A DNA stretch of 64,000 nt from Echinarachnius parma. Lineage: Eukaryota > Echinodermata > Echinoidea > Clypeasteroida > Echinarachniidae. The notes under the pieces are model-generated. The model saw nothing but the letters and a program-made list of their open reading frames with translations. It was not told where the DNA came from and made no database searches. Below, in pieces: positions 7,927-46,123 of the stretch; the first letter of the stretch is position 1, and each line of letters begins with the position of its first letter. The stretch is taken from the NCBI GenBank assembly GCA_037951105.1, contig JBAMJV010000883.1:21001-85000 (forward strand), given 5' to 3'. Both the position numbers and the translations under genes were made by a program.

Positions 7927-8046
7927 GGGCCCGGTTGCAGAAAGAGATGCAATCGATTGTAAATTACAATTAATTGCAAGTCAGAAAATTTGCCTGATTC
8001 ACCCATCAGATTTGCGCATTTAGAACACTCTTTGTGCAACGGGGCC
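7927..8046. mobile_element. Palindromic MITE L, copy with degraded right arm
   Basis: The left arm (GGGCCCGGTTGCAGAAAGAG, CAATCGATTG, CAATTAATTG) matches the copy at 22207. The right arm keeps only CTCTTTGTGCAACGGGGCC. Confidence 0.7.
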
Positions 8047-8489
8047 TAAGAGTTTTAGTGTGTAACACTGACACATTTCCACAATCTATCATTTATACTC
8101 AAAATTGGAACAAATATTATTTGTTTATTATTATTTAATGTAATGATTAGCCATAATGTTCCAGATATTTTCAAGGATAGGTGAATGAATTTGTATCTGT
8201 TCTTTAGTTACTTCAAATATTCTATTGTTGTTGACCTTTTACTTCAATACCAATGCACTTGGAATGGATCATTTCAATTTCTGTGGGAGGGAGGGAGGGA
8301 GGGGTTGAGGGGTATCGATGTGAAATGAAATGGCAAGTGTCAAATGCCCATTGGAGATGGACATGTAATAATGTACGATGTAAACATTAAGTAGTGTAGA
8401 GAGGGTAGACCCAAAAGTGTGGGATCTAAGATTTCAATCAAATAATATGAATGGTGTTTGAGAATGCATTTCCCATTTTGATTTTACTC

Positions 8490-8580
8490 TAAGGAGGGGG
8501 GGGGGGGGGGGTGGGGGCATTGTAAAAGGGTGTTCCTATTACCTCCTCCCCCCCCCCCCCCCCCCCCCCCCCCTGCTACT
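8490..8580. repeat. G-run and C-run pair
   Basis: A run of about 18 G with one T near 8493-8516, then about 26 C (8548-8573) only 30 bp later. They are complementary and could form a hairpin. Run lengths are prone to assembly error. Confidence 0.7.
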
Positions 8581-8822
8581 TAGCTACAATGTAGCCATTG
8601 TGAATACTGCCCTATTTCATTATGGATTCAGGTCATGTAATTTTTTTTTCTCTAAGATAGTCGAGATCAGATGACTGATAAGTGCACATTTGCTCATGAC
8701 TCATGAATGAATTACGATACTTCAGTTTAATATCCTTTGAAGAATTTGCTACAAATGTAAATTATGTACACATTCCACAAAAGTTGAAATATGCTCTGCA
8801 GTTATAGTCCATTGTACTTAAC

Positions 8823-9205
8823 TTAAAGGGATAGATCTAGTAACTTTGTTCACATGTGCAAAAAGTGACGAGTGGTTGATACAATGTATATTATTGTCAT
8901 CTGATATGTCCACTGGGTGTTGTGTGAAAATTTGAAGTTAAATGGACGTTATTTGGCCGAGTAATGAGCAAAAATGCAAAGTGATATTCACTAACTCATT
9001 GCACTCACTTTGTACACGGTTTTGGCGATCCAGTGGATTATTTGACATCTGAACACTTTGATCGTAAATATCTTTTTAACAAAAGGGAAATTTGAAAAAC
9101 CAAAACCTGTCCCATGCGTTAATATGAATACAACAAGGTATGAGGGAACCGCTAGAATTCTAATTGGATTTTGAGGATTTGGACAATGTTACTAAGTCCC
9201 TTTAA
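8823..9205 (+). mobile_element. TTAA MITE K, copy 2
   Basis: Full-length copy with TTAAAGGG and CCCTTTAA ends. Its left end has a 4-base insertion (GATAGATCTAG). The interior follows copies 1 and 3 closely. Confidence 0.85.
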
Positions 9206-9359
9206 TTGATTTTGAATGTTCGGTGTTAGACAATATTTTTAAAATAACTCAAAAGCATTACAGTGGTACAGAACTATTAAACCTGAAGTTTATTTACTAA
9301 TCATCTTCAATCAAGCCCCAAGGGTATTGTTACAAGACTAGATTTCTTGATTTTAATGT

Positions 9360-9780
9360 AAGTATGGGACAATGAACTTCTATCAACAGTAGTGACTCAT
9401 GCTACAATGTACTTAATACACATACATGTGTGCATTTATTCTTTCCTCACCTATCCTACACGTACTTGTATGTACAGTACATGTTGTGGTCAGTACTGGT
9501 CAAGACAGATGGTCATTTCGCATTTACAACCGAGTTCTTATTTAAGAATCTGACCATTCCAGGAGCAAGTCTATACAGTACACTATGTTGTCCTGTCTTG
9601 GTTAATGGGGGTACTGACGGTATCATAGTATGGGACAATGAACTTCTATCAACAGTCGTGACTCATTCTAGAGCTACTTATCCACATGTGTGCATTTCTT
9701 CTCTCTACACCTACCCTACTAATACTATTTGTAGTACATCTTGTGGTCACTGGTCAGTAGGCCTACTGTGGTCATCAAGA
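9360..9780. repeat. Tandem duplication, about 268-bp unit
   Basis: GTATGGGACAATGAACTTCT and ATCAACAGTAGTGACTCAT recur at about 9362 and 9629, followed by CACATGTGTGCATTT and CACCTACCCTACTA in both. The 117-aa frame here runs across the repeat and is not convincing as a gene. Confidence 0.78.
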
Positions 9781-10069
9781 TAAATGCCCCTTTTCACATA
9801 CTTGTTCAATACCCAGGCCCGTAAGTGGGCATTTAAAAAAAAACCTCCTTCTTACCACTCCTATGTAGTCTTTATAGAGATGGATTTAATTTTAGATGTG
9901 AAATTGGTATATTAGTTTGATTGAAAGTCAAGATTGACCACAATAATCAAGATAAAAACAATGTGTGCAAGAAAAAGTTTGTCCATTTTCAGAAAGACTG
10001 TTTCGGAATTTATACAGAAACAGTCCAATTTAGAGAGGCTCTTGACCTCTGGAAAATTGCTTCATTTTG

Positions 10070-10850: not shown

Positions 10851-10914
10851 CATGCAAGTATGCATGGGCAGGGAGTTTCCAAGGATTAGATGGCATTAGG
10901 TGGTATGGTTGCTT

Positions 10915-11158
10915 CGTTTGTTCATTCATTCATTTATCCATTCATTCGTTCGTTCAGTCAGTCAGTTAGTCAGTCATTAATTCATTCGTTCGTTCGTCTG
11001 TCCGTCCGTCCGTCCGTCCGTCCGTCCGTCCATCCATCCATCCATCCATCCATCCATCCATCCATCCATCCATCCATCCATCCATCCATCCATCCATCCA
11101 TCCATCCATCCATCCATCCATCCATCCATCCATCCATCCATCCATTCACTCATTATTA
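10915..11158. repeat. Tetranucleotide microsatellite, mainly (TCCA)n
   Basis: A gradient of related tetramers: TTCA, CGTT, CAGT, CGTT, CGTC, then about 29 copies of TCCA (11028-11144) and ATTC. The 89-aa frame reading (IHPS)n is only this repeat. Confidence 0.9.
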
Positions 11159-11334
11159 AATATTGTATTAAAACAGTCTTAATTTAGATGTGAAAGGGTG
11201 TGTGTGTTTGAATTCTGACCATTGCTTTTTGAGCCAGAGATTGACCCTTGGAATCAAGATTAGAAGGCAGGCATGCATGCAAGTATGCGCTATTAGCATT
11301 TGACGGCATTAGATGGTGTGGGTGCTCATCCATA

Positions 11335-11720: not shown

Positions 11721-11991
11721 CAGGGCTCGACACTAGCACTTGCCCTATTGCCCGGGGCAAGTAAAAATTGATGTCGGGCAAGTACAATTTCATAAATGGC
11801 CTAGCTTGGTTGACCTATCGGGCAACTAAATTATTGGTCAAATATGAGAGCATAATGTAATTTGTTAGGTTTATATCTCATCTAGAAGTAAGCAGGCAAG
11901 TAAACTTTCTGTTCGGACAGGTAAAATGTGAAAAGTTATGACTTTACTTGCCCGAAAGGGCCAGTAAGGAAAAAGTTAGTGTGGAGGCTTG
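11721..11991. mobile_element. MITE F, copy 1 (CAGGGCTCGACACTAGC ends)
   Basis: The left end CAGGGCTCGACACTAGC is matched by a degraded right end (GTTAGTGTGGAGGCTTG). The flanks are AAGTATG and AAGTAGG, a 7-bp near-duplication. Subterminal CTTGCCC / GGGCAAGTA words recur at both ends. Confidence 0.72.
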
Positions 11992-12530: not shown

Positions 12531-13762
12531 TAAGCCTGGGTCGGAACGGACGGAATACCGGAATCCGTCCGGTGCGTGCGTGTTCCGGTTTTGTTTTCTC
12601 CATTCCGGTATTCCGATGAAACAATGTAATACATAAAGAATATCTTAATAATATCATTATATCATGTATGTTTTATTAAATCTTACCAATCATAAATGAG
12701 AAGGTCTTGGACATTTTCGTGAAGCATTTATTAGTGTTCCGTGAATGGCGATTCTCGTACTCTATCTATAATACTGTACTAATGAGTTTCGCATAGAGCT
12801 GAATACTGTATAAGTCTGTGGTTACGCATTGTCTGTAGTGCGCTCCGTATCTGAAACTACTGCCATAGACCATGTAGACGGCATCGCAGCCCGCGGTGCC
12901 GCTGACAAGCACATGCAAACATATGGGTGTTTGAGTCAAGCACGAAAGTCGAAGAGTATTGATATTAGAGCGCAGGGAGAAAGCGTACGATGAATACGTG
13001 CGCGCGTTTATGCACCGATATTTAGTCTCAATGGATGTTGCATTTATAGCATATTTTATGTACGCACAGTACTGAGAAATGGACAAAACGGGCGCGAGTA
13101 TGATGTAGATATTCCGCCATCTTGAGGTTATGTCAATTCTTTTATTTGATATCGGTGGATACTAGCGATCACATGGTGCGATTCACCGATCTATATTAGA
13201 ATGGATTGGTAAAATATAGGGACAATGTACGCGCTATTGGTCCTAACAGTAGGAGTTTAGAAAGTAAATTTGCCGCCATGTTGAGTTTATGCAACATTCT
13301 TTTATTTTATGTCGGTGGATATAAGCACATGCACGTGTTGTTAGTGTTGACTTATTCGTGTCGTTGTACTAGCTTCAGTTCATGCAGGTCCGAGCGAGTT
13401 AGAAAATGTTCGAGATATAATCAGCGCATTTTTTGTTGTTGCTGTTTTTGCAGGTAATTGTTCTCGTATTTATTTTAAAAGCCATACAAACATGTAAGTA
13501 AAATAAGAGATCGTAATGATCTTACATTTTCGTTCCTTTTCGGCACTTTTTAAGAGTGCAACTTGCAAGGTCAAGGCAGTTGAGTTGGCCTGTCTCGCAG
13601 CGCGGGGCCTGCCTGCGCTGCCGAAACTATGGCAGACCTTCTAGTGCATGTTCGTTCCGTATCATTCATTGGCAGGTTTTTTTTTTATCGGAATACCGGA
13701 TTCCGACCGGCACAACACCGGCGGATTCCGGAACAAAAAAATTCCGACATGACTCAGGCTTA
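12531..13762. mobile_element. 1.2-kb DNA transposon A (TAAGCCTG ends)
   Basis: TAAGCCTGGGTCGGAA at the left is matched by the complement of TAAGCCTGAGTCATGTCGGAA at the right. ACACACAC lies directly outside both ends (12523-12530, 13763-13770) and may be an 8-bp target duplication, although it is low complexity. The subterminal regions repeat CGGAATACCGG / CCGGAATCCG words. A direct repeat of about 50 bp starts at about 13111 and again at about 13273. The core at 13339-13428 matches element B. No transposase is seen. Confidence 0.75.
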
Positions 13763-13990: not shown

Positions 13991-14552
13991 TTAAAGGGAT
14001 AGTTGAGTTTTGGTAGAGAGGGCGCTAGACTACTTTTTTTTTTTGTGAGGTAATGAAAAACTGAGTGTAAAATTTGAAAGAGCATAATATTTAAATAATA
14101 AAATCATCTTTGTTTGATCAAAATCGGTTCAGAGACGGCTGAAATATCCATAAATATAACAATTTGTAATAAACCCGGGCCCCGGGTTTATTAGAGAATT
14201 TTGAACCAGCCGTTAAAAATTCAAAAAAATGCTTCCTCTTTTCAAAAAGTTACAAAATAGGTATTTCAATAGTTGTTGGTTATTTCTCTATCCAATCACT
14301 ATTTCAACAAAGCATCACATGCACAATATTTTATTCAAAATGGTTGAAACCGATGAGTGTTTAGAGAGCGCCCTCTTACGTTTTAACGGCTCTTTTTGAA
14401 TGATAACATGATCTTTACTACGTCATTTGTAATTTTGTGTTCCTTTCTAGTTATAACTATTAGTTTGTAATGTAATGATGCAGGTTTTGGTTACTAAAAT
14501 TCAGTTTCACCAAAACTGTACTCTCCTTACCAGAACTCAACTATCCCTTTAA
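13991..14552. mobile_element. TTAA MITE J, copy 1 (562 bp)
   Basis: TTAAAGGGATAGTTGAGTTTTGG at the left and CAGAACTCAACTATCCCTTTAA at the right, with TTAA on both sides. Inside is a near-perfect palindrome around a CCCGGG core flanked by AATAAA/TTTATT (14169-14193). No coding frame. Confidence 0.82.
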
Positions 14553-14766: not shown

Positions 14767-15529
14767 CCTACCACCACGTTTACTTGTATTTTCAGCCGTT
14801 TAGTACATTTTGAGTCTTAGCTCCTCCTCCGAACATCATGGGAAATCTTGCCCCCCTCTCTTTGCCCCCATGTCTGGATTGCCCCTGGGTACGCCCTTAT
14901 AGTATTTAATGCCAGACTGTGATCTGTCAATCCCCCTGGCTCCCACACACCCACACCCTGATACAACATTCCTGCAAAGTCGCCAGCGAGTCTGCACAAT
15001 GATGCGCCAAAGAAATGTAGTCATTCATTTGGAGACTCACCTTTTATTCTTCTTCTTCATGACTATTTTACACTGTTGTTGACTAGTAAAGTAAACATTT
15101 CTATTTGTTTCTTTTGCAAACAAAAATGGTATTAGGCTACACGTTGCATTTATTTATTTCAATTGAATAATTGACATGTATCTTAATTTCAACTATTTAA
15201 AACAAAGCTTAAATCTTGACAACCTGAACACTTGTAAGATTTGCCCAACTAAGTGAAAGTATTATGTAAGCTACTTTCCTATATCCTCAAAGTGTATTGA
15301 TTTGGGAGAGATCATATGGAACAGCTAGTCAATATACTGTACATACATGTATGTAACATATAACTAAGTCCTTCAATACTAATAGGTTTGAATAATGAGT
15401 TATTTTGTTATCTATGAGTACAATGAACATAATCAGTATGCTTTTCATTTATTTAAGCCTTCTCCTCTCATAAGTATGTAAAGACAATTTGATTTGGAAT
15501 AGCATGCATTCTCTATATAACCCTGGTTG

Positions 15530-16095
15530 ATGTTTTTTTTTTCTGGATGGGTTAAAGAGCCAAGAACTGATGTGAAATTGTGTTTTTTTTCCTGTATTCT
15601 CACTTTCACTCTCTTCTCTCGTATTGACATATTCAAGAGAATTCGATTTTGGTATATCATGCTTTATCCGTACTCCATAGACCCCATGATCAAGTATGTT
15701 CTTGATGGGTTAAGGGCCAAGAACTGACTGTTAAATTGTGTGTTATTTCCTCTACTCTCCTCTCTTTCTCTCTTCTCTTGTATTAACATATTCAAGAGAA
15801 TCCAATTTTGGTATAACATGCTTTATCTATACTCCATAGACCCCATGATCAAGTATGTTCTTGTCTTCTTGATGGGTTAAGTGCCAAAAACTGACTGTTA
15901 AATTGTGTGTTAAATATCCCCCTCTCTCCCCCTCTCCTCCAGCTCACTCTCTCTACATGTATATCTCTCTATTAACTTGTTCAAGAGAATTTGATTTGGT
16001 ATTAAACATGCTTTATCCATAGACCCCATGATCGAGTATTTTCTTGATGGGTTAAGAGCGAAAAAACTGACTGTGAAATTTTGTGTTAAATATCC
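15530..16095. repeat. Tandem array, about 168-bp unit, about 3.3 copies
   Basis: TTGATGGGTTAAGGGCCAAG and AACTGACTGTTAAATTGTGT recur at about 15540, 15702, 15870 and 16043, each followed by a pyrimidine-rich stretch and CCATAGACCCCATGATCAAG. Confidence 0.85.
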
Positions 16096-16339
16096 TGTTC
16101 ATTCTCTCAATCTCACACTTCTACTCTTTCTCTACGTTCTTTGGACACCTCATCCATCTGTATTCAGGGCAGCGTTGTGTTGTATTTCAGTAACCCGAGA
16201 GATGGATGGATGAATTTTTGGATGATAATAGGGGTGTAGCAGGGACCATCTTGGGCATGGGGGCATTTAGGGGAGTGGTGGTATTGGGAGGGGCGGGGGA
16301 AGGGTTTAGGTTAAAGGCAAAGAGGGAGCTAAGTGTGCG

Positions 16340-17324: not shown

Positions 17325-18070
17325 TCGGATGTAAGATGAGTGTACTCTGCAGAGCTCATTTGGTCTCGCAGTGAAAAGATAATGTTCTCGTTTGAGATCC
17401 GAGATAATTTGGGAGATATGCAGTACATGTATTTGAACTTGGTTGCAGTAGTCTTCGCTTACATTGTAATGGGGGTAATATTTAAAGGGATAGTACAGTT
17501 TCGGTCATAACATGTAGGATGTAAGATGAGTGTACTCTGCATAGCTCATTTGGTCTCGCAGTGAAAAGATGTCGTTTGAGATCCGAGATAATTTGGGAGA
17601 TATCTTCTATGTACATGTATTTGAACTTGGTGAAATAAAGAGATCTATATCTAGATGCAGTAGTCTCCTCTTAATGGGGTAATATTTAAAGGGATAGTAC
17701 ACTTTTGATCATAACATTGGGATGAGTGTACTCTGCAGAGCTCATTTGGTCTTGCAGTGAAAGATAATGTTCTCGTTTGAGATCCGAGATAATTTGAGAG
17801 ATACTATACATGTATTTGAACTTGGTGAAGTATCAAAGTTCTGCATCTAGATGCATTAGTCTCTGCTTAATGTGGTAACCTTTAAAGGGATAGTACAGTT
17901 TATAACATTGGGATGTATTAGATGAGTTTACTCTGCACAGCTCATTTGGTCTTGGAGGGAAAGATAATGTTCTTGTTTGAGATCTGAGATAATTTGGGCG
18001 ATAAACATGTATTTGAACTTGGTGAAATATCATAGACCTACATCTAGATACAGTAGTCTCTGCTTAATGG
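17325..18070. repeat. Tandem array, 190-200-bp unit, four copies
   Basis: GAGTGTACTCTGCAGAGCTC / ATTTGGTCTCGCAGTGAAAA recurs with CTCATT at 17355, 17545, 17741 and 17941 (spacings 190, 196 and 200). Units after the first end with TTTAAAGGGATAGTACA, the same terminus as the TTAA MITEs, so a MITE end is part of the amplified unit. Confidence 0.87.
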
Positions 18071-18659
18071 GATAAAATCTAAAGGTGCCCATGTGTTAAT
18101 GGGGTAGGATTTGACCAAATATATTTTATGTTTCTTTCATCACTTAATTTGGACCCCTCTGAAAAACAGCTTGTAGCTGACAAGGGCAATCCATGATCCA
18201 TCCTATGAGTGGAGAATAAATAATAATTGGATACAACTGTTAAAGGGATAAAATAAACCTTGCAAAATCCTTATTTATACATGTAGGTTAGGTATACTAT
18301 ATAATAATATGATTTGTTTATCTACATAAATTGTCTAGCTCAGCATTAATCAATGTTAATCAAACATGTTTTGGGCTAATTAATCTTTATCAAGTGAAAA
18401 TGTGGATGAATGAAACATTGGCAGTAATAATACATTGTATACAACTTTTTTTAAACTTGCAAGCTGAAAACGCCTCAAAAATTGCAACTTGTGTTCAGAA
18501 GAATCATTGGCAGGGGTGTGATCTATAGCTCTGTCGGATAAAAAGAATGATTTATTACTCTGTGAATTTGTATTTATTTTTCTGAAGGTGTACAATGTAC
18601 ATTTGATTGATTTGATTGTAGGTTATAGCTTTCTGTAATTTAAATTTTGTAGAATGTAC

Positions 18660-20439: not shown

Positions 20440-20677
20440 CAAACCTCCACACTAACTTTTGTTAGGGCATGTAAAATGTAAAATCATGCATTTTTACATT
20501 TTACATGCCCTTTTATTTCTAGATGAGATAATACACATGAAAATACACTTTTCTCTCTTAATAGTTGAACAACTATTTAGTTGCCCGATCTGGCAAGCAA
20601 ACAAGACAATTTATGACATTTTACTTGCCCGACATCAATATTTACTTGCCCCGGGCATGTGCTAGTGTCGAGCCCTG
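20440..20677. mobile_element. MITE F, copy 2 (opposite orientation)
   Basis: The right end GCTAGTGTCGAGCCCTG is the complement of copy 1's left end; the left end CAAACCTCCACACTAAC matches the degraded type. The flanks are CATACAA and CGTACAA (7 bp, one mismatch). It contains a 19-bp-stem hairpin at 20465-20510. Confidence 0.72.
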
Positions 20678-22206: not shown

Positions 22207-22372
22207 GGGCCCCGTTGCAGAAAGAGATACAATCGATTGTACGTTACAATTAATTGTAAGTCAGATCATGTGTTCCAAACGCGCAAATTTCATTGGTTGA
22301 AACACTCAAATTTTCTGACTTACAATTAATTGTAACTTACAATCGATTGTATCTCTTTCTGCAATGGGGCCC
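22207..22372. mobile_element. Palindromic MITE L, intact copy (arms of about 60 bp)
   Basis: GGGCCCCGTTGCAGAAAGAG at the left and its near-exact complement at the right. The arms also contain TACAATCGATTGTA (22228-22241) and TTACAATTAATTGTAA (22244-22259), each a perfect palindrome. The whole 166 bp can fold into one long hairpin. Confidence 0.8.
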
Positions 22373-22675: not shown

Positions 22676-23082
22676 CATACCTGCCAACCAGTCCGATTTT
22701 GACGTATTTGTTCCGATTTTTTCATTAGAAGAGGGTGAAAAATTGGAACAGTACGATTTTTAAGTTGGGGAAAAAAAAATTCAGATTTTTAAAAATATTT
22801 TTTAAATTTATTTATTTATTTTTAATTTTTTTTCCCCCTTCAAAAAGTAAATATGCATGTGCATAAAGATCTATACACACATACATAAGCCAAAATATTC
22901 ATGATCTTTATCATTGAAATATTGCTCATTCAGTGTGGTCATATGTTAAAAAATAAGGCTAAGATAGCTTCTAGAAACCTAGAGCTGGACCCCGGCTGCA
23001 AAGGACTTCACGCTTCCCACTCGTGATGTGCGCTTTGCTCACATCAGAGTAAGATTTTCATTTTCAAATGTTGGCAGGTATG
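22676..23082. mobile_element. 407-bp MITE E, diverged relative of D (6-bp target duplication)
   Basis: CATACCTGCCAACCAGTCCG at the left and GTTGGCAGGTATG at the right, with GAAATG duplicated at 22670-22675 and 23083-23088. Subterminal TCCGATTTT words and the central A-run, (TTTA)n and CCCCC block (22771-22841) match the plan of element D. Confidence 0.8.
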
Positions 23083-23377: not shown

Positions 23378-23600
23378 TGATGACACACGCGGTACCCCGG
23401 GGTACCGTTGTACCCCGGGGTACCGCGTTGTGTAGCGCCATCTTGTGTCCACTCGAAGCACAACCATAGTGCGTTGTGTATGCAGTGCAGCGCGCGATTG
23501 TATGCACGCTACACCCTGGTACAGCCCTAAAAAATAAATAAATAATTAAACAAAATGGTGGATATTCGTTTGGTACCCCAGGGTACCATTTATGTCATCA
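23378..23600. mobile_element. 223-bp MITE I built on GGTACCCCGGGGTACC
   Basis: TGATGACACACGCGG at the left and CATTTATGTCATCA at the right form the outer inverted repeat. Just inside are the 16-bp perfect palindrome GGTACCCCGGGGTACC (23391-23406), a second near-identical copy (23411-23424) and GGTACCCCAGGGTACC (23572-23587). Confidence 0.7.
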
Positions 23601-25588
23601 CATGTTGATTAGTAATTAAAGTAATCTGTGTTGAGATTTTGTATTGATAAACTTTGTAGACTTTTATTAAAACCTTGTTGCAAAACATTGAACCGTTTTG
23701 TTGCTAAACACTGTCCTGTATTATGTTTTCATGGCATTTAAACTGTAACAACCAAACATTTACTCACCCCTAAGCCCTATGCATAGATCTCCGATTGCTC
23801 TCTAATATGGGGCACTAACTCATCTCGGCGACTCTGATGGCTAAATTAAAGTGATGACTCAGTGTGTTGTTGCATGTGGAGGAAAGGCTGGCATCCTTTC
23901 TCCAATTGATGCTACATGCTGGATTCACATCACATTACATCATCGGAAACCTATAGATGCCTGACTCACCTTGTTACACTGGGCACCTAATTAGATACGA
24001 TATATGAACCATATATTTTCTTTATGGGAAATTTCCATGAATTACAAGATGAATAACTTGTAATAGTCAGAATACATTACATCTTAGCTCGAATTTAATT
24101 ATTTCTCTGTGGCATTATTATACTCAGCCCCTGAATGATTCGCCTTGCTACATTACAGTTGGTATTTAAAGATAAACCATTTTAAATATTCAATGAATTA
24201 CAATGTGAATAGCAGGACTACATACATGTACATGTGTTAAATGTCAATAATGATCAATTTGAATGACAAGATGATATTTATCATTTTGTATTTTCTAAAT
24301 TAATAAAATATTGCATTTTATGTGCAAAACTCAACATTCTACACAGTCATTAGAGAACTTGAATTTAGACCATTATGTTGCATACTAGATCTGTAGATCT
24401 ATAGCTTATACAGAGCTCTCTGTATGGTGCTTGTGTCTTGGTTTTTGTTTCATTGTTTTGATATTGAGGGGATGTCCAGAAGACAATTGATTCAATATAA
24501 TTGCTCGTTTTATGGTCTGATATACATATATATTAGTTTCACTACTAAAAGAGTTCAATACTTCAATTGCTTTATAACAGACAGATGATATAGTACACAG
24601 CAATTTAGTTTGGTGCAATATACATGTTACGGATAATAAACTCTAACTTCTAACGCGGTTTCGTTGATGTGCTTAGCAACCATGAAATGGCCTCTTGTGT
24701 CATGCATCGTTAGATTTGTGCATACTCTGTATGACCTTGAGCAGGAAGTCCTCTGTGCACACTGTTAAGTTATGAAGTCTTTCAACCCCGAAACGTACGG
24801 ATGTGAAATGTGTATTTTCATTGTAATTATTGAAGAAGTTACATGTAGAGACCTTATAACATGTATCCAGTCAAGTGTGTGTACATGTATTGTGTATCGG
24901 ATGGGTAATTGATATTATCATTGTTAAGTGCTTAGACTTTAATAGCCTTAGAGATGATGATCTGGAAAATCATATTACATACTCAGAATAATTGAATTCT
25001 GTTGTCTCGCAATAAAGACATCACTAGCAAGATTGATGATGAATATGAAGTGTGTGCGAATTCTAGTTTTCATTTTCATTTTCGCAGTAAATGTGAAATG
25101 CAGCCCTCCTGAGAATATCACGTTCTCTTTATAATATGGAACAAAAAAACAAAAAAAGCAACGTCTTCGCTAGCACATTCCAAATCTAATGATGGCAAAT
25201 TAGATTTACCCCGAGCAGCATATAAACAGCCAAACACACAGCATGTGATTTCATGTATCATGAAAACGCATTATGGAATACACTCATCTCCAAATTTATG
25301 TTATCACCAGTTAAAGATGGGGTTGGGGTTGCTACACCCCGCAAATTTCCATTTTGAACTAGCCTAGTTTGTTTGTGCCCACTGCATAACACTGAGCCAG
25401 TGTAGGATGTATTACGCACCTGGAGCAAGGCATTCGCAAGATGGCACCGCGCATCTGGTTTATAAATCCGAACCACAAAATGTGTATGAAAAATGTGCAC
25501 AAGGCACACATATTTACTGCACATGTACAAGTCTGCTTCATCATGGTTATTTTTAGGTTTGCAATTGATTCTTAGAATTTATGAATGA
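23601..25588. other. No recognised feature
   Basis: About 2 kb without a visible inverted-repeat element or array. The 90-aa minus-strand frame at 25258-25530 has no identifiable domain. Confidence 0.45.
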
Positions 25589-25974
25589 TTAAAGGGATCT
25601 AGTAACTTTGTTGACATGTGCAAAAAGTGATGAATGGTTGATGCAATGTATATTGTTGTTATCTCATATGTCCACAGGGTATTGTGTGAAAATTTCAAGT
25701 CAAATGGACATTGTATGGCCAAGTAATGAGCGAAAATGCAAAGTGATATTCAGTAACTCACTGCACTCACTTTGTACACGGAAGAAAAACTCGCCCGGAG
25801 TTTTTCTTATCTGAATACTTCAATCATACATATCTTTGTAACGAAAGGGAAATTTGAAAAACCGAAACCTGTCCCATGATTTTATTGTTAATACGAATAA
25901 AACAAGGTATGAGGGAACCGCTAGAATAAAAAAATTATTTTGAGGATTTGGACAATGTTACTAAGTCCCTTTAA
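25589..25974 (+). mobile_element. TTAA MITE K, copy 3
   Basis: Full-length copy close to the family average, with intact TTAA at both ends. The 68-aa frame over it is part of the repeat; similar frames recur in copy 4. Confidence 0.88.
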
Positions 25975-26431
25975 ATTTATGATGAATCAGGCATTTCAGA
26001 TAATACACATACTTCTGTGACCTAATTTCTGACTGAAATTCAAATAGGTATTACTATCAGCTGAAATTCTCAGAAAAGACTATCTATAGATTGATTTAAC
26101 AGTCTGTATGGCACAATGAACTCCAGAAGAGTTTGCCTATCATGCTAAGTGTATTTATTGGTTTGAAATGTCTTCATGCAATGATCACAGATGATAACAT
26201 AATTTCAAGCACATATATATATATAATGAACACGATACTTAGAAAACATGATTAATGAAATGTAATCATATTTGTATAATTTTGTTTATTTGATTTAAAG
26301 ATTAATGAGTTCTATCTGTACCCATTGACCGCAAGGTGAAACATTTACAGCTCATTTGAACATGCTATTTGTAGAAAAATGTACTTTATAAAGTTTAATT
26401 ATTAATTGTTTGTATTTTTTCATTTATACAG
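25975..26431. other. Intron or upstream DNA before the RING exon
   Basis: AT-rich DNA with a short (TA)n near 26216-26225 and a polypyrimidine-poor but usable acceptor at 26431. Since an acceptor precedes the exon, at least one untranslated exon probably lies upstream, but I could not identify it. Confidence 0.4.
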
Positions 26432-26929: not shown

Positions 26930-27309
26930 CAAAGTTGACAAAAAGTTGACATGTGCAAAAAGTGATGAAGGGTTGATGCAATGTATATTGTTGTTATCTC
27001 ATATGTCCACAAGGTATTGTGTGAAAATTTCAAGTCAAATGGACATTGCATGGCCAAGTAATGAGCGAAAATTCAAAGTGATATTCACTAACTCACTGCA
27101 CTCACTTTGTACACGGTTTCAAAACTCCGGGGGAGTTTTTCTTATCTGAATACTTCGATCGTACATATCTTTGTAACGAAAGGGAAATTTGAAAAACCGA
27201 AACCGGTCCCATGATTTAATTGTTAATACGAATACAACAAGGTATGAGGGAACCGCTAGAATTAAAATTTTATTTTGAGGATTTGGACAATGTTACTAAG
27301 TTCCTTTAA
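26930..27309 (+). mobile_element. TTAA MITE K, copy 4, left end damaged
   Basis: The interior and right end match the family, but the left end reads AACAAAGTTGACAAAAAGTTGACATG, a small local duplication in place of the terminal AGGGATCTAG. It lies in the first intron of the RING gene. Confidence 0.8.
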
Positions 27310-27512
27310 GGTATAATTCAATTTAGAGAGGTGTGACTTAAAGGTCAAAGGTCTTAATCCAGGAAGATTGATTTTATGATAAAGGAAGACTATTTATAAT
27401 TGTTTTGATTCGTTACTATTCCTTCCTAGCCATCTCCTTCCATAGCCCCTCACCCATTCCACCTCCTGTTCCTACAAAAACATTACTCTGAGAAATCAAA
27501 AATAATAGTACT

Positions 27513-27854
27513 TTAAAGGGACTTAATAACATTGTCCAAATCCTCAAAATACAATTGGAATTCTAGCGGTTCCCTCATACCTTGTTGTATTCGTATAATT
27601 AACAATAAAATCATGGGACAGGTTTCAGTTTTTCAAATTTCGCTTTTGTTAAAACGATATTTACGATTGAAGTTTTCAGATGTTAAATAATCCAACGGAT
27701 CGCGAAAACCGTGTACAAAGTGAGTGCAATGAGTTTGTGAATATCACTTTGCATATGTGCTCATTTCTCAGCCATATAACGTCCATTTGACTTGAAATTT
27801 TCACACAATACCCTGTGGACATATCAGATATTAACATAAATACAGATCCCTTTA
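27513..27854 (-). mobile_element. TTAA MITE K, copy 5, inverted
   Basis: Begins TTAAAGGGACTTAATAACATTG, the right end of the family seen in reverse, and ends AGATCCCTTTAG. About 45 bp near the second end are missing. It is inverted relative to copy 4, only about 200 bp away, so the pair could form an intronic hairpin. Confidence 0.82.
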
Positions 27855-29869: not shown

Positions 29870-30960
29870 CAGACTGGGGCAGAGGCGAGGCGAGGCGAGG
29901 AGAGGCAAGGTGGTAGGGTGACCCTCTCTCTCTCTCTATCTGTCTGAGACTCGACGTCTGTCCGTCTGCCTGCCTGCCTGCCTGTGTCTGCTCAACAACA
30001 AGTTAACAACAACAGCAACAAGCTGTGTAAACTTCAAAACTTTAAAACAGTAGGAGGATTTTTTTTCTTTTTCGGATAACCCTTTGCCTACTGGAATATG
30101 GTTGGCCCTCTCTATAGAGGTCTGCTCTCTCTAGCTTTATCGAAGACTCGACGTCTGCCCCTCTGTCTGCCTGTGTCTGCTCAACAACAAGTTAACAACA
30201 ATAACAACAAGCTGTGTAAACTTGAAAACTTTAAAACAGTTGGAGGAATTTGTTTATTTCGGATAACCCTTTGCCTGCCGGAATCTGGTTGGCCCTCTCT
30301 CTAGCTCTGTCTGAGACTCGACGTCTGTCTGTCTGTCTGCCTGTATCTGCTCAACAACAAGTTAACAACAACAGCAACAAGCTGTGTAAACTTCAAAACT
30401 TTAAAACCAGTAGGAGGAATTTAATGTCTGTTAATCCATTGCCCACCGCAACCTGGTTGGCCCTGTATTGGAAAACAGCGGGGTGATCGTCTATCTAGCT
30501 CTATCTGAGACTCGACGTCTTGTCTGTCTGTCTGCCTGTATCTGCTCTACAACAAGTTAACAACAACAGCAACAGGCTGTGTAAACTTCAAAACTTTAAA
30601 ACCAGTAGGAGGAATTTAATGTCTGTTAATCCATTGCTCACCAGAACCTGGTTGGCCCTGTATTAACTCGATGGGAAAACAGCGGGGTGATCGTCTATCT
30701 AGCTCTATATGAGTCTTGACGTCTTGTCTGTCTGTCTGTCTGCCTGTCTGCCTGCATCTGCTCATCAAAAAGTTAACAGCAACAACAACAACAAGCTGTG
30801 TAAACTTGAACACTTTAAAACAGTACTGTAGGAGGAATTTGTTATAAATGTCTGTTAATCCATTGCCTACAGTAACCTGGTCGGCCTTGTATTTAACTAT
30901 AGATGGGAAAACGGCGGGCGGGGTGACCATCTCTCTAGCTCTATCTGAGACTGAAGTATG
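29870..30960. repeat. Tandem array, 170-205-bp unit, five copies
   Basis: GACTCGACGTCTGTCTGTCT, CAACAACAAGTTAACAACAA and GCTGTGTAAACTTCAAAACT recur with starts near 29948, 30144, 30315, 30509 and 30713. The frames here (up to 121 aa) are repeat-derived. Confidence 0.87.
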
Positions 30961-31407: not shown

Positions 31408-31752
31408 CAGGGCTCCACACTTACATTTTTTGTCAGTGTCCCGGTCAGGCCAGTGAAAAAATGTCTTCCCCTTTTCTGGTGGCCCAAAATAAAAATCTAC
31501 TGGCCTGAAATGTTTTATTTCATGAGTAAACTTTTTACTTTTCAAAATATCACTATTTCGGGATCGAACATGTGATAATCGATGAAGCATGATATGGAAG
31601 AAAACAAGATTTTTCTAATTTTGTCAATGTCGGGTTAAAAAATCTGCTTGCCCGATCGGGCCACCAAAATATGACTTTTATACATTTTTGCTGGTCCGAA
31701 GTGCAATTTCACTGGCCCTGGGCCAGCGGGCCAGTGCGAGTGTCGAGCCCTG
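31408..31752. mobile_element. MITE G (CAGGGCTCCACAC ends, GGCCAGTG words)
   Basis: CAGGGCTCCACACTTAC at the left and GTGCGAGTGTCGAGCCCTG at the right. The subterminal DNA repeats TGGCCCACTGG-like words. The ends resemble family F while the words differ. The target duplication is unclear. Confidence 0.6.
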
Positions 31753-39086: not shown

Positions 39087-39451
39087 TTAAAGGGATCTAG
39101 TAACTTTGCAAAAAGTGATGAGTGGTTGATACAATGTATGTTATATGTCCACTGGGTGTTGTGTGAAAATTTCAAGTTAAATGGATATTATATGGCCGAG
39201 TAATGAGCAAAAATGCAAAGCGACATTCACAAACTTATTGCACTAACTTTGTACACGGTTCTGACGATCCGTTGGATAATTTGACATCTGAACACTTCAA
39301 TCGAAAATATCTTTTTAACGAAAGGGAAATTTGAAAAACCGAAACCTGTCCCATGCTTTTTTTGTTAATAAGAATACAACAAGGTATGAGGGAACCGCTA
39401 GAATTTCAATTGGATTTTGAGGATTTGAGCAATGTTACTAAGTCCCTTTAA
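39087..39451 (+). mobile_element. TTAA MITE K, copy 7
   Basis: Ends TTAAAGGGATCTAGTAACTT and AAGTCCCTTTAA are intact. A deletion near the left end removes GTTGACATGTG. Confidence 0.85.
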
Positions 39452-39469
39452 GATTTTTTTATTTAATTT

Positions 39470-39505: not shown

Positions 39506-41334
39506 GAGGGAGGCTATTTTAGGTATCTTAGAGGCTGAAATTCCCTGAGCCCCTGTGTGTTCTGATCACTGATGCTCCCATACAATGTAGATCAAGCACA
39601 TTGGCATGCCAGCCAAGACAGTCTTGCGCATGACATTTCCTCATCCATCCGGATCCGAATGATGATGAGCGTGGCATATCGTTACACAAAAATCTTATTG
39701 AAGTCCAATAACACGACATGGGCCTTCTATAATTGCATCATTTTCATAGATGGGGTCTGGGGTCACAAACTAGATAACAAGCTTGTCTTTGCTTAACCCT
39801 AGTCCTACCAGATAGTATCGTGCCCATTTGGTTTTTACATGGTATAACAGGTTAAAGCATGGAATGCGTTGATTTAATACCGACTTGGCTAATTTATTGC
39901 GGCCAATACGGCCAGATTAGGCAGGGCTGCATGAGCACTTCGGCAAATGAAATTGAGTAAAAGGCCAATTACATTAACTTAAACTGCCTCTACAAAATAA
40001 AACCAACAACACAGTTATCATCTCATGAAGTCATTATTGCATTCAATAGATATTGCTGCAATATTTTTCAATGCCACCATTACAATTTCCCTCCTCCCCA
40101 TTAAAGGGAATATTTTTACTTTGTTTTCACTTGATCAGACGTATGCACTGTGGATAAAATTCTATTACTTTAATCTGCTATGACCACTGAGTGATACGTA
40201 CAAGTTTATCATTTGCACACTCACTGTCATGTATGGTTGTATACAGTTGAAAATATCCCGAGCATACTTTCAAAATCAATGTGGTAATGTTTTGTTAATA
40301 TAATTTTGCAATAAAAATAGATTCACTTTGGGAATATTTATCAAAAATTAGAGAGCTACATGTAAATTTGGTTTCTACAAGAATTTCTAACTTTAAACAT
40401 GATTATCTGTGAAGCACATAAAGTGACTTGGCGCCCTTCTCTTTCTCAATGGACGAATATATATCTAGGTCAGTGACACAGATTATCTCAGATATCTGAA
40501 GGATGCATCTCGGATGTAAAGTATCAATGAATTCCAGAGAATTAAACAAATGGCTGCACCCAGCTGGATAATTACTTCTTAGATCAGAAGCTTTATAAGT
40601 GATTTCACATTAAAGAGAGTTTGACTATTTCTAGTCTGTTTTTGAAACGATGTTACTTCTTACGGCCCTGTGAAAAGGGTTGTTCATATCATTGTAGAGT
40701 AGAATCTTATGATATCATCGTTTGAGAAAGAGAAGGGCATTATTAAGTTTATGTTTTGTACTTTGTACTGCATGTTCAGCTTATGAGCCTTGTAGTAGCC
40801 AAATTTAGCTCTTCCCCCCCCCCCCCCCCAAAAAAAAAAAATATATAAAAAAAATAAATTAATTTTAAAAAAATAAATAAAAAAATAAAATAAATACAAA
40901 ATTAGACATACAAATTATCTGAAAATTGTGCATCATGTAGAGAAGGCTCTGACTTACAAGATGGCATGCAGAATTCAATTTAGCCCCAAATCGACTTAAC
41001 GCCCATCTCACTCTCACCCGACGAGGACATTCAAGGAAAGAAGTAGAAGCATTAGGGATACCAACTAAACTTTGATTCATAATACTTGAGAATATGTGAG
41101 AACATTTACTTTACATAGCTGAGGTAGAAGTTTACAAGACAGTCATATATGCTAGAAATAGAAAGTTGAGGCAGCAAATGAATTGCGGATGAACTACATG
41201 AAGGTCAGTGACATGAATTATCTCTCACCCTCTCTCTCTCTGAAGAAACATGTTAGCACAGATGTTTCAAGGAATTGCGGACAAGAAAATCTGCACGGCC
41301 TGCACCCAGCTGAGTCAAATACTTCTGTTTTAAA
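39506..41334. other. Intronic DNA, mostly unrecognised
   Basis: Contains a C-run/A-run at 40814-40900 and a single-copy relative of the 47-bp array (about 40955-41020). Confidence 0.4.
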
Positions 41335-41507
41335 GGCCCGGTCACATTTCAGAGGATAGCGTAAACCTATGCCCGACGAATGGAAAATTTGCAAAATCAA
41401 ATTATCCGTTGGCGAAAGTCGTCTCCATTGCTTCATGCACAAAATATTCCGCCGGCTAGACAACATCGCCTGACAAGGAACGGACAAGCAACGCAATATG
41501 AACGGAT
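41335..41507. mobile_element. MITE M, truncated copy
   Basis: GGCCCGGTCACATTTCAGAG and GTCGTCTCCATTGCTTCATG match the left two-thirds of the copy at 6545. The right end is missing. Confidence 0.65.
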
Positions 41508-42099
41508 TGACAAGTTTATTTTCAAGCTCGCCTGTGTGAAAAAAGCACCCTAAATTGGTTTTGCATTAAATTCTATGCAAATGATTAAACAGGGAGTCTT
41601 TTTATGATTTACGGGGGGGGCTCTTTTTGTCATATCGTCAAATTTGCCCGGTGTATTTTTTTTCACTGGAAATAGAAAAGTTCATATCTTCTGTAGATCC
41701 TGTTTGCATTATTAGGGTTTAGACATACATGTATAGTGTTGATCTGTTGCTGTTGGTAGTTTACTTTCAATAACAAAATGATGTTATGGCACATGTATAC
41801 AGTATGTTGCATGTATACCCCAAACATTCAAACATCCACATCCTCATACACTGTATGTCCAGCCACACAAATACACACACAACTTATTCAAATGCGCTTA
41901 ATCCTGCGAAATGATTTGGAATAAATCGTGATGAGAAATAAGTTTTGCATCGATTCACACAAAAACTGCCGATGCATGTGGATGTGTACGTGTATGTATG
42001 TGTGCAATTGCGTTTGTGCATGTGTGTGTTTGTTGGTGTGCATGAGAATTGTGAAATCATAATCCCACAGCTGGGTTCAGGTGACTGCACTTTCATCAT

Positions 42100-42990
42100 A
42101 TATATCTGATCATGTCTTGAGGGCCTTCACAAGACTTACCCTTCTTCTTACACCTTTTAAACTGCACCTTTCACACTGCACTTTCATCATTCGGATCACG
42201 TCCTAAGAGTTCAGACTTCACACCGCTTTGACAAGTCCGAACCCCTCTTTGCACCTTTCACACCACACATTTCACACTGCACTTCCATCATTCGGATCAT
42301 GTCCTAAGAGTTCAGACTTCACGCCGCTTTGACAAGTCCGAACCCCTCTTTGCACCTTTCACACCACACATTTCACACTGCACTTCCATCATATATTCTG
42401 ATCATGTCTTGAGGCCTCTGCAAGACTGATGTCCCTTCTCACACCCTTCACATCGCACTTTTATCTTCAAATATATTCTGACCATGCCTTAAGGGCCTTG
42501 TCAAAACTGATACCCTTCTCATACCTTTCACACTACTCTTCAACCATTCTAATCATGTTTTTAGGCCTTGACAAGACTGATACCCTATTAATACCTTTCA
42601 CTCTGCACATTTCACACTGAAATTTATTCTGATTATGTCTTGAGTCCTTGACAAGACTGATATCCTCTTTGCACCTTTCACACAGCATTTGTATCATACT
42701 GATCATGTTTGAGGCTTCACACCACACTTTCACATTGCACTTTTATCATTCTGATTGTGTGTTGAGGGATATGACAAGATTGATACCCTCTTCACACATT
42801 TCACACTGCACTGTCATCATACTGATCATGTCTAGAGGCTTCGCACAGCACCTTTCACACTTTCCTTAAATATTCTGATCATGTCTTGAGGGCCTTGACA
42901 AGACCAATACCCTTCTTACACCTTTCACACCGCAACTTTCACACTGCACTTTCATCACACATTCTTATCATTGACGCCTTTAGCAAGACT
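42100..42990. repeat. Irregular tandem array, 60-110-bp unit, about 12 copies
   Basis: GATCATGTCTTGAGGGCCTT, ACAAGACTGATACCCTTCT and CACCTTTCACACTGCACTTT recur about twelve times from 42106. Two adjacent units at 42195 and 42296 are nearly identical (CCTAAGAGTTCAGACTTCAC), a recent doublet. Confidence 0.85.
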
Positions 42991-43375
42991 GTAACCTTTA
43001 GCACACTTTGTTTACACTGCAGGTCGATTCTTAAATCAACTGTCTCAACTTGAAACATAATCATACCTTCAAGAAAAATTGACATTTCAATTGAATATTT
43101 CATTGTTCTGAATTTAGTAGAGTGCTCAGTACCAATTGAATAGAAAGCCTAGCTCTCTAGAAGTGATACTGGTTACTGAATATCCTAGCTAGAGGGCTTG
43201 TTTGCAAACACCGGAAACTACCAAGTCCCCAAAGAAGTAGCTCCGTCTGGTCATCTTTTCATTTGCCGGTGGGCAATAGCTAGAATTGATGGTGTATTTA
43301 TATAACTCGTACCACTGTGTATATTAGTTGTATCACATGTATGCATTGGTGTGATTTTTGCGAAATCCTGTTAAC

Positions 43376-43530
43376 CCATTCCCTATTGGAACCTGATGGG
43401 TCCTGTATTAGCCTGTTCCCTTCAAGATTCTGAAATCCCCGTAGACTTTGTACACAGCCCACCAGGGTTTCCTAGGCAAGGGGTTTTAAACTCTATTGGG
43501 GTTGCAAATACTAGTAAGGGAACGGGTTAA
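43376..43530. repeat. Relative of the ACCCATTC repeat
   Basis: AACCCATTCCCTATTGGAAC, TCTGAAATCCCCGTAGAC and TTTGTACACAGCCCACC match the copy at 59770. The right end is GGGAACGGGTTAA. Confidence 0.5.
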
Positions 43531-43610
43531 ATTCTATTCATGAAAATGGGGCAGATTATTTTCCCCATTCAAGTCAAGTAACCATACTTTATTTTGTATA
43601 TATACATTTG

Positions 43611-44009
43611 CAGAGCTGCCAACTAGTACGGATTTTCTGTAATTGGTACGGAAATTGACAACCATTACGGGAGTACGGAATGCCGCTTTAAAAAAAAAAA
43701 AAAAAAAATCGATTTATTTATTTATTTATTTTTTTTTTTCCCCCTTTCCCCCTGGATATATCCGATATCTGTCCGTTTTTTCAATTGGAATCAGCAGGGC
43801 AGTGCCATGTTAGTCGTTTTTTTTTCTTCTTTTTTCGGTTACCCGTTCTGCTAAACGTTTTTGCCGATGACGGTCGGTTAACCGTCGTGTAACCGTTACA
43901 CTAAACTTATAGTTCATAGAGCCGCGTAGGAAATTACTGATTTCTTCCCAAATTACTGATTTTGAGCCTTGAGAGTACTGATTTCATGTTCTAGAGGTTG
44001 GCAGCTCTG
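43611..44009. mobile_element. 400-bp MITE D (CAGAGCTGCCAAC ends, 6-bp target duplication)
   Basis: CAGAGCTGCCAACTAG is matched at the right by CTAGAGGTTGGCAGCTCTG. CATTTG flanks both sides (43605-43610, 44010-44015). The interior has repeated TACGGA / TACTGATTT words and a central A-run followed by (TTTA)n and T/C runs, as in element E. Confidence 0.82.
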
Positions 44010-44203
44010 CATTTGACATCTTAAATGGAGTCCCTAGAAGCCTTCTAAATACAGTAATTTTAAATTGCATATATACCCAAGTGTACAACATGTAGCTCTA
44101 CGATGTATTCCATATTATACAGTGTTGGTCAGCAAGTGACCATTACTAAAGTCCATTTGATGACCACAGAGTGGACGGTCAGTAGCTAAAAATATCCGCA
44201 CAT

Positions 44204-44600
44204 TTAAAGGGACATACGGCTCGTCATTCCTCAAAATCTAAATTATTTTGTGAAGAAGCTGTCTAGAGAAAAACAGTAAATAGAAGAGTTTGTATAGTAT
44301 TCTTTGGTCCAAAATTTGCTCAATTGAGAACAATGAATAAACAAAGGGCTAATAATATGCATTTTTAAAGAAAATATCCAAATTTTAAAATCCAACCTAA
44401 TGTTGACAGTAAGTGCAAACATTGCCACACATTATGTGTAAACTTATATACATCGACAAGATAAAGTAGATCAAATTCAGAATGTTCAAGCTAATCATGT
44501 ATTGTGAATTCATTTTTTTCCTCCCAAGTAATGTAATTCACAAGAACTGGAATCCAAAAATAGCAATCCTGACACAGCGAATTCAATCGTCCCTTTAAAA
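44204..44600. mobile_element. TTAA MITE (about 395 bp, TTAAAGGGACATACGG end)
   Basis: TTAAAGGGACATACGGCTCG at the left and GAATTCAATCGTCCCTTTAA at the right. The inverted repeats are short (about 12 bp) but TTAA is present on both sides. Confidence 0.6.
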
Positions 44601-44866
44601 AAAGAAAAATCCATCACATAACAAGCTCGGTGGATTGAGTGGCACACTGACAATCCATCTCCAGTGCACCCTACCTCACTTGGTGTGTAAAATTGATTTA
44701 GCCTTTCAGAGAAAAACCCATAGGGTATTTGTCTTTGGGTGCATTAGTAACAATGGGGGCAAGCCGTCTATTCGATTCAGGATACACACCATGCTGGTGG
44801 ACTGTTACGTCCATATAGAATGAACTTTTGTTTACTAGTCACTTGACACATGTATGCATGCATCAC

Positions 44867-46123
44867 AGTCAAACCTGTGTATAGTGACCACCTAAGGTAG
44901 AGGCACGGATTTTCCGCGATCGCGGAAAATCGCGGAAAATCGCGGAATTGACCATTTGAAACGGAAAATGAGTTCTCAAACGGAAAATCGCGGAAAACCT
45001 CTTTTTCCTCAAAAATTCATATTTTGTAGTAGAAAACTATCAGAAGAAAACAAATGACAAAAAAGTACAAGAAAGACGATGTCGAATGCAACTTACAACG
45101 ACAAGAAATCCGCTGCGTTTATTATGACAGCCGATCTAGCGCGGTGCGGCGAGTACGGCATACGATCGACGTCGTAGACTAGCTACCCCGGCGCGCCCCG
45201 GCCCCGCAGCTAGCTGCTATCAGTCAGAGCTAGCTGCGCCGTACCATGTCACCCATGTACGTAATATTAATACTGCACATGGATTAAACGATTCTCAAAC
45301 GTTGACATCCAGTCCGCCCTCTATCGGTACAGCCCGCCATATCACTCGTTTACTTTGCGTGCAGGTTATGGGTCTCATTTCTTACGCGAGATATCCATGG
45401 ATATCTCGCGTAAGAAAAAAGACCCGATAAGCTGCACGGAAAGTATACAAGTGAAGTGTTAGTGTTGACTTATTCGTGTCGTTGTACTGATATGATGTAA
45501 GCTTCAGTACACATGCAGGTTCGAGGAGTTAGAAAATGTTCGAGATATAATCAGCGCACACGTGTATAACAATTACTTCCGCGTTCGTTCCGGGGTATAT
45601 ACTACGGCTTTGGTAATGGTACGGAATTCGATTACGACACGACGTCACCACACGCTGATAGTGATACGTATGAAAGCTTGAAGTTGAAGCGAGAGAAAAT
45701 CGGTAAGTTTTCACAATAAATACCTATATTATTGAATAGCCTAACTACTCTCTGGCCTGTCGTAAGTCATTTCTGATATCAGGCATGACACATTCCCCCA
45801 AATTTGGATGATTTGTGGGTGAAAATCATTATTTTACCATACTTATTGAATTTTGTATAGAGTTTGATGGTAAACGGAATTTGCAGTTTTTCACATGTAC
45901 AAAGTCTATGGCAAAACGGAATTTCCGTTTTTCAGGCAGGTAAAAACGGAATTCCCGATTTTCTGAAACGGAAAAGGCCTTTTTTTGAAACGGAAAATCC
46001 GTGCCTCTACTAAGGGATACATTAAAGTGGCCACTGTAGTCAGGTGACCTCTATAGACAGCTTCTATGATATTGTTTTTCTCGATAGGGGGATCACTTTG
46101 GTGGCCACTATTGCAGGTTTTAC
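44867..46123. mobile_element. Host MITE interrupted by element B
   Basis: The left end AGTCAAACCTGTGTATAGTG ACCACC (44867-44891) is answered by the complement at the right (GGTGGCCACTATTGCAGGTTTTACT, 46100-46123). Removing element B and one CTAAGG restores a continuous short MITE of about 140 bp, which dates B as the younger insertion. Confidence 0.65.
44898..46009. mobile_element. 1.1-kb DNA transposon B (TAGAGGCACGG ends, 6-bp target duplication)
   Basis: The ends are near-perfect inverted repeats (TAGAGGCACGGATTTTCCG and its complement). CTAAGG flanks both sides (44892-44897 and 46010-46015). The subterminal DNA is built of repeated GCGGAAAAT / AACGGAAAA words, including a 22-bp perfect palindrome centred at 44919/44920. 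Internally it has a GC-rich stretch (45130-45260), a long hairpin (about 45345-45455) and a core shared with element A (45458-45558). A GTAAGT donor-like site is at 45703. No transposase frame is present, so it is non-autonomous. It is nested in another MITE. Confidence 0.82.

Follow-up and report, generated by a model that had tools for sequence, protein, structure and literature searches.

Iterated subterminal words, probably paired as transposase half-sites, at the ends of non-autonomous hAT-type elements of Echinarachnius parma

Why should small transposable elements of seemingly unrelated families, lying close together in one genome, carry self-complementary words near their ends? The question is raised by a stretch of 64,000 nucleotides from Echinarachnius parma (assembly GCA_037951105.1, contig JBAMJV010000883.1, positions 21,001 to 85,000), here called the window, for which a preliminary description proposed that unrelated families of miniature inverted-repeat elements repeatedly hold perfect palindromes near their ends, and that these reflect dimeric binding or hairpin formation. 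The observation is partly confirmed by our analysis and the interpretation partly supported: the iteration of words is a stronger signal than palindromy, and palindromy is not general, being significant in families B, I and L and less extended in F, while A and C show it as 4-bp half-sites in inverted pairs. We consider it likely that the words of A, B, C and F are half-sites for a BED/CGGBP-type N-terminal finger of hAT transposases, that their palindromes are head-to-head pairs bound cooperatively, and that B is a deleted relative of a hAT transposon of ~3.8 kb.

Elements were located through terminal inverted repeats (TIRs), target site duplications (TSDs) and self-comparison of the window, and family I through its palindrome. 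Copies were sought in the 1.2-Gb assembly (14,790 contigs) with DNA queries that contained the left-end words, at query identities of 98-100% (A), 100% (B) and 99-100% (C); as the best 40 of 551-2559 candidates per query were scored, the copies examined are the closest ones and no census.

The words themselves connect three of the families. In the 120-bp ends of A, B and C no 4-mer is more strongly over-represented than CGGA, which occurs 17, 14 and 13 times, respectively, versus 0.53 expected, and since it comes first in all three alike, these different-looking families have one core in common and are not all unrelated. Among 5000 random non-element samples of 2x120 bp the CGGA maximum was 9, and a scan of the window for at least 5 CGGA per 120 bp returned the six A, B and C ends together with a microsatellite at 11001 and a repeat at 6615-6765. 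The core is extended to CGGAAT in A, to (AAA)CGGAAAA, often as AAACGG, in B and to CGGATC in C. Convergent CGGA...TCCG pairs 0-3 bp apart number three in A, three in B (two of them in identical TIRs) and two in C, and one pair is divergent. In addition, same-strand words are helically phased in B (left end p = 0.0025, right end p = 0.045, 7 sets), with best periods of 9.5 and 10.5 (9 sets, coarser null grid), and this near-helical spacing fits binding from one face. The repeat at 6615-6765 belongs to a repeat pair, 6540-6773 and 41330-41516, which has inverted arms as well as ACGG/CGGA words and may be a further element with CGG words.

Copies elsewhere in the genome bear out the earlier claim that the iterated subterminal words are a property of families and not of single copies. 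Both ends of A were present in 24 of 30 fetched copies, 19 of these 24 with the exact 8-bp TSD of hAT elements; the left CGGA-A-TCCG pair is kept in 28/30, and at the right end, which lay outside the query, 23 of 24 copies have the 33/38 words, and the 58/63 words are kept in 22 and 21 copies. Seven of the eight fetched C copies had both ends (the right end of the eighth was not found), all seven with an 8-bp TSD; CGGATCCG, located at 48902 and 48913 in the window, stands at positions 59 and 70, inside the query, and the right end has 4-5 CGGATC words.

The search for transposase-encoding parents, suggested by the preliminary description, succeeded for B. The hAT dimerisation domain (PF05699) was found at 34 places in the genome, of which 10 were read, and three of these ten, L129, L130 and L131 (~3.8 kb), carry B ends and also the subterminal palindromes of B. 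L130 (3,813 bp) and L131 (3,793 bp) are each bounded by 6-bp TSDs. Both end regions of the window's B, together with inner parts, align with all three relatives at 83-95%. The transposase frame of L130 is split; that of L129 is uninterrupted over 596 amino acids from stop to stop (590 from the first methionine) and matches Dimer_Tnp_hAT (PF05699, 3.5e-14) and DUF659 (4.7e-12), both above the Pfam cut-off, with CxxC...H...H visible at its N-terminus. Its best solved relative in PDB is the Hermes transposase (3.3e-4), whose transposon makes TSDs of 8 bp.

Both ends of B were recovered in 29 of 30 copies, with a TSD of exactly 6 bp in 27 of the 29, 7 bp in one and none in one. The left palindrome is present in 29/29, by construction, because none of the best 40 matches listed differs from the query in the left 123 bp; the palindrome at the right end was not part of the query and keeps full arms in 28/29. 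The TSD of B thus departs from the 8 bp general in hAT elements and fits the 6-bp subgroup hAT6: the intact frame is that of L129, and the 6-bp TSDs were seen in L130 and L131, not in L129. We read B as an internally deleted derivative of a ~3.8-kb hAT transposon of this kind. A and C, with 8-bp TSDs, and B, with 6-bp TSDs and hAT-encoding relatives, are hAT elements, and F is probably one.

Further features of these elements were seen besides the ends. At 45342-45454, B contains a 113-bp inverted duplication holding a perfect 40-nt palindrome; among 29 other B copies at least 23 have a longer palindrome at this site, and AATTGGGGAATTCCCCAATT stands at roughly the corresponding position in the three long relatives. 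A and B have even an internal segment of ~90-100 bp in common (13339-13428 and 45457-45558, 84% identity in the window self-comparison); a 24-mer of it was found in 28/29 B and 13/24 A copies and not in the three long B relatives, and the segment is either captured filler or a nested insertion. A 3.6-kb stretch round another hAT dimerisation domain (L133, 754-4372), with the 8-bp TSD GTAAGTAC and CAGGGTTGCC tips, is apparently another hAT family.

Family F shows what can become of such words within one family. Nine ends in the window and 16 distinct ends from the collected sequences were compared, the latter picked by tip and not by words, a choice that leaves out degenerate-tip ends, one of which (the right end of copy 1) is mixed. 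The right end of copy 3 (F3) has its words at element positions identical to those of the left end of copy 1 (F1), and in other ends they are shifted by indels. In the proximal pair both halves are alike, CTTGCCC/GGGCAAG-like (T-type) in 9 of the 16 ends and CTGGCCC/GGGCCAG-like (G-type) in 5, with none mixed and 2 unclassified (Fisher p = 0.0005, for a classification by eye that ignores relatedness). Between F1 and F3 a common T>G change affects at least four of five words (p = 0.003), the fifth deviating and the sequences being related. In 3/16 ends a second pair, TTGCCC-GATC-GGGCAA, forms a 16-nt palindrome without mismatch. The F word thus differs between subfamilies at most positions, not all, with the geometry kept; as the ends are related, the replacement may have happened once, and the constancy of pair spacing within a family is a post hoc observation. 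An inverted duplication with 20-bp arms at 20464-20511, at the left end of copy 2 (F2), is made of the F subterminal stretch GGGCATGTAAAATGTAAA.

What stands on direct observation is that the words are common to copies, the lengths of the TSDs, the long B relatives and the hAT domains in one of them. From there we infer, by analogy with known systems, how the words may work. The N-terminal zinc finger of the transposase, of BED/CGGBP type, would read the iterated subterminal half-sites in A, B, C and F, and two half-sites set head to head would make up each palindrome: family A has CGGA-N-TCCG, B has CGGA-NNN-TCCG, C has CGGATCCG, and F has either CTTGCCC-N-GGGCAAG or CTGGCCC-N-GGGCCAG. Such a pair might then be bound cooperatively by two zinc fingers of one transposase multimer, and A, C and F would be moved by enzymes of the hAT kind that B's relatives encode.

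The closest parallel is Hermes. Two of its N-terminal BED domains cooperate in binding an AAGT/AAGC quasi-palindrome, inverted round one central base, and site phasing is called crucial (PMC10368747). Dimeric binding, as proposed earlier, therefore has a solved pairwise precedent in a hAT transposase, although palindromy as its general feature does not hold. The left-end STR1-STR2 of Hermes resembles the ends described here in its short half-sites close to the tip, one inverted pair round a central base, extra copies and a hAT transposase; it differs in the AAGT half-site, which here is CGGA-cored (A, B, C) or GGGCAA/GGGCCA (F), in the longer palindromes of B and in the 6-bp TSD of B (PMC10368747). 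Most CGGBP motifs contain CGG, the domains usually favouring CGG or CGC words with preferences that vary between relatives, and the four hAT proteins that yielded a motif all had motifs matching their own subterminal regions (PMC8097297). The words found here are like those of this hAT-19/CGGBP group in containing CGG, in their subterminal placement and in the varied preference among relatives, and unlike them in that long relatives of A and C were not found among the places read and in that two insect hATs of that study gave AT-rich motifs (PMC8097297).

Other hAT systems share part of this pattern. Maize Ac binds subterminal AAACGG, a word that occurs 7 times in the B ends, and its non-autonomous derivatives may have little but ends in common; Ac has an 8-bp TSD and the TIR C/TAGGGATGAAA, unlike B with 6 bp and TAGAGGCACGG (PMC3260210). 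Subgroups of hAT with 5-, 6- and 7-bp TSDs have been described, the 6-bp hAT6 being credited to Kapitonov and Jurka 2007 (PMC12730594); B resembles it in its 6-bp TSD and hAT transposase domains. Herves has a short subterminal motif at both ends that is said to ensure specificity; unlike the words of A, B, C and F it reads C(G/A)ATTCAT, and the word 'palindrome' is absent from the main text of that paper (PMC3143072). Kat1 has subterminal TGAATT repeats, and 'palindrom' occurs 0 times in the main text of its report (PMC4763223). With long B relatives that encode the enzyme class known to grip paired words, the system would be a fresh example of known biology. Since B offers left-identical copies and same-ended long relatives, one of them with an uninterrupted frame, it would allow a direct test of the need for inverted half-sites outside Hermes.

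Several points weigh against half-sites read by a zinc finger. Because the queries contained the left-end words, the left-end conservation of A, B and C is built in, and the right ends alone are free of this. B alone yielded long transposase-encoding relatives among the 10 of 34 PF05699 places read; there, no A or C tip occurred within 2 mismatches, and F tips were single, at 2 loci. The N-terminal finger of L129 scored below the cut-off against the Pfam C2H2 models (0.051 and 0.24), with no zf-BED match listed, and L131 has one base changed in the left palindrome. Convergent CGGA pairs outnumber divergent ones by a modest margin noted post hoc (8 versus 1, p = 0.02; 8/17, p = 0.04), which becomes 7 versus 1 (p = 0.035; 7/16, p = 0.08) when one B TIR pair is left out, and for same-strand words in A, C or F phasing did not reach significance (7 sets). 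Mixed pairs, TGGCCC with GGGCAA, are present at the second pair in F3 and L128, both of them G-type ends, as well as at the F1 right end, and the flanks of the three F copies show at best imperfect target duplications. Two insect hAT transposons, moreover, gave AT-rich and not CGG motifs (PMC8097297).

The half-site reading also leaves families I and L unaccounted for. By the tests made these are not hAT elements, yet their palindromes are clean, two per L end and two at the left end of I. Among 12 fetched I copies, 11 have a 2-bp TSD (TA 5, TT 3, TG 2, AA 1) and the window's copy has none, so that I shows 2-bp duplications where hAT elements have 8 or 5-7 bp; both left palindromes and the imperfect right one are kept in 12/12, all inside the query. 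For L, 38 fetched copies and the window's gave 32 unique sites, whose flanks, tried at 25 boundary registers, contain no exact 5-9-bp duplication, hence none of the 5-8 bp of hAT elements, and a 2-bp one in at most 4/32. Its palindromes, TACAATCGATTGTA at 22228 and 22338 and TTACAATTAATTGTAA at 22244 and 22320, are all four present in the consensus and intact in 19, 21, 18 and 7 of the 32 single copies.

It is possible, albeit doubtful, that the hAT families here diverge by replacing the half-site word at most positions together while the pair geometry stays fixed, and that, separately, I and L, two families outside hAT by their TSDs, hold perfect even palindromes as tandem pairs (centres 17-18 bp apart). 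Judged from the sequences, CGGAAT, CGGAAAA and CGGATC on the CGGA core may be examples of such replacement, as may CTTGCCC versus CTGGCCC in F, with one distal half-site left behind; the mixed F pairs make it less probable. F could serve as a natural experiment in how transposase and binding words change together, a process that may stop related transposons mobilising each other.

How far palindromes exceed chance depends on the background chosen. The whole window has 26 even palindromes of non-low complexity with arms of at least 7, versus means of 5.4-7.9 in simulations (Markov order 1-3, 20 each), which makes its DNA palindrome-rich in general, and two local tests were therefore applied. 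In dinucleotide shuffles of 18 elements (36 ends, 60-100 bp each) the longest arm was significant at both ends of B, at 3 of the 4 L ends, at 1 of the 2 I ends and at one F3 end (p = 0.016; F1 0.054); A, C, D, E, J and K showed no significance. Counting arms of at least 5 gave significance for three L ends, for I (0.032) and for one K end (0.008), and none for B (0.42 and 0.18). Against random non-element segments of the window, the longest arm stood out in B (p < 0.0001), I (0.013) and L2 (0.020), with 0.084 for F3 and L1 and values all above 0.2 for the remaining elements; three of ten families (B, I, L) thus lie at p < 0.05 (binomial p = 0.012), or two of nine (p = 0.07) when I, which its own palindrome had located, is omitted. 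In the shuffle, 4-mer and local-background tests the end of I was taken as 23595, which genome copies place at 23600, and the start of F2 as 20442, which is 20440 in the element.

Self-complementarity across 'so many families' was accordingly overstated. Perfect palindromes do occur where they had been placed in B (TTTTCCGCGATCGCGGAAAA at 44910), in I (GGTACCCCGGGGTACC at 23391) and in L (TACAATCGATTGTA and TTACAATTAATTGTAA). The CCCGGG-centred word of J is a perfect 27-nt odd palindrome, albeit one that starts 176 bp inside the 562-bp element and so is internal. The A word CCGGAATCCG is no palindrome and encloses the 9-nt CGGA-A-TCCG (4+1+4), the C word GATCCGATCC is a direct repeat at 50023/50028, beyond the range described, although C does hold CGGATCCG, and the F 14-mer is not self-complementary, the palindrome there being a 13-nt odd-centred one at 11748-11760.

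A purely mutational origin, by which small inverted duplications arise through fold-back synthesis or template switching at hairpins and are spread, functionless, by element copying, seems unlikely to us. It would agree with the richness in palindromes outside element ends, with the long palindromes that elements hold internally (B, 40 nt at 45378; J, 27 nt at 14167; F2, the 20-bp-arm duplication) and with the state of the L copies, in which palindromes have no significant advantage in preservation over the remaining element (0.052 versus 0.067, p = 0.15, 32 unique sites). It does not lead one to expect words repeated at a number of distinct sites in each end of A, B and C, or an F proximal pair that holds its place while both halves differ alike between subfamilies; the both-sided changes in L, 5/5 of which kept complementarity, also speak against it, though they are few and perhaps inherited.

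Chance together with selective reading, in which striking words were noticed while most families have none, is quite improbable as a full account. The longest arm is indeed not significant in 6 of 10 families (A, C, D, E, J, K) and marginal in F, the A and C words are non-palindromic, and one K end is significant by arm count alone; B, I and L, however, beat both nulls by longest arm and the word iteration of A, B and C is far above chance. Chance is thus excluded for B, I and L and stands for the claim of generality. Selection of the ends for hairpin or cruciform formation is the most improbable, for although 10/10 ends folded as single-stranded DNA gave negative z-scores, 7/10 of them below -2 (I -7.4, A right -4.2, F3 -3.9), and the both-sided L changes are complementary, inverted words by themselves would yield such scores, several palindromes are loop-free, the L palindromes decay no slower than the rest, and folding strength does not follow palindrome class (F1 -1.1, L1 -1.2, C right -1.2, B with the longest arms -2.8, A right with no long palindrome -4.2), which leaves hairpins unsupported as a general explanation.

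Table 1. Positions in the window of the elements and subterminal features discussed.
Feature	Position	Strand	Remarks
Family A, non-autonomous hAT element	12531..13762	+	TIR TAAGCCTGRGTC; 8-bp TSD; CGGA/TCCG words at both ends; three CGGA-N-TCCG pairs
A left-end cluster	12542..12612		9 CGGA/TCCG words; CGGAATCCG at 12559
A right-end cluster	13656..13743		8 CGGA/TCCG words; inverted pairs at 13697 and 13722
Family B, non-autonomous hAT-type element	44898..46009	+	TIR TAGAGGCACGGATTTTCCG; TSD CTAAGG (6 bp); long relatives L129-L131
B left-end perfect palindrome GATTTTCCGCGATCGCGGAAAATC	44908..44931		maximal 24 nt, then CGCGGAAAAT in tandem; contains TTTTCCGCGATCGCGGAAAA at 44910
B right-end odd palindrome AAAACGGAATTTCCGTTTT	45913..45931		arms of 9 in 28/29 copies
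Family C, non-autonomous hAT element	48844..50112	+	TIR TAATGCTGTTA; 8-bp TSD GTTGTAAG; CGGATC words at both ends
Family D, hAT-like	22677..23081	+	8-bp TSD GGAAATGC; single copy; no palindrome
Family E	43611..44009	+	TSD CATTTG (6 bp); single copy; TACGGA words; no palindrome
Family F, copy 1 (left end of CTTGCCC type)	11721..11991	+	words at element positions 20, 28, 35, 56, 100; odd palindrome TTGCCC-G-GGGCAA at 11748
Family F, copy 2 (CTTGCCC type)	20440..20677	-	
Family F, copy 3 (CTGGCCC type)	31408..31752	-	CTGGCCC-A-GGGCCAG at the element position matching that of copy 1
Family I, 223 bp	23378..23600	+	TIR TGATGACA; two GTACCCCGGGGTAC at left, centres 18 bp apart; one imperfect at right
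Family J, TTAA-flanked, 562 bp	13991..14552	+	perfect 27-nt odd-centred palindrome 14167-14193, internal
Family L copy, 166-bp near-complete inverted repeat	22207..22372		two different perfect even palindromes per end, left centres 17 bp apart
Family L, older copy, right end decayed	7927..8047		
Repeat family, many copies with TTAAAGGGA tips	4157-4546, 8823-9208, 25588-25976, 26945-27310, 27513-27844, 39087-39452, 50630-51013, 52833-53205, 58452-58641		

Ten open reading frames of the window had no Pfam family match at E 0.05, the F and L end patterns gave 0 matches in viral and genome contig collections, and six end sequences searched in the literature were not found there. The TIRs of D and E have a common TGCCAAC core despite TSDs of 8 bp (D) and 6 bp (E). 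Tandem arrays with units of ~70-250 bp occupy 5096-5682, 15481-16122, 17327-18085, 29916-30952, 42084-42991 and 54693-55474. In addition, the window contains ~9 copies of a repeat family, many of them with TTAAAGGGA tips, to which the tips of J are similar.

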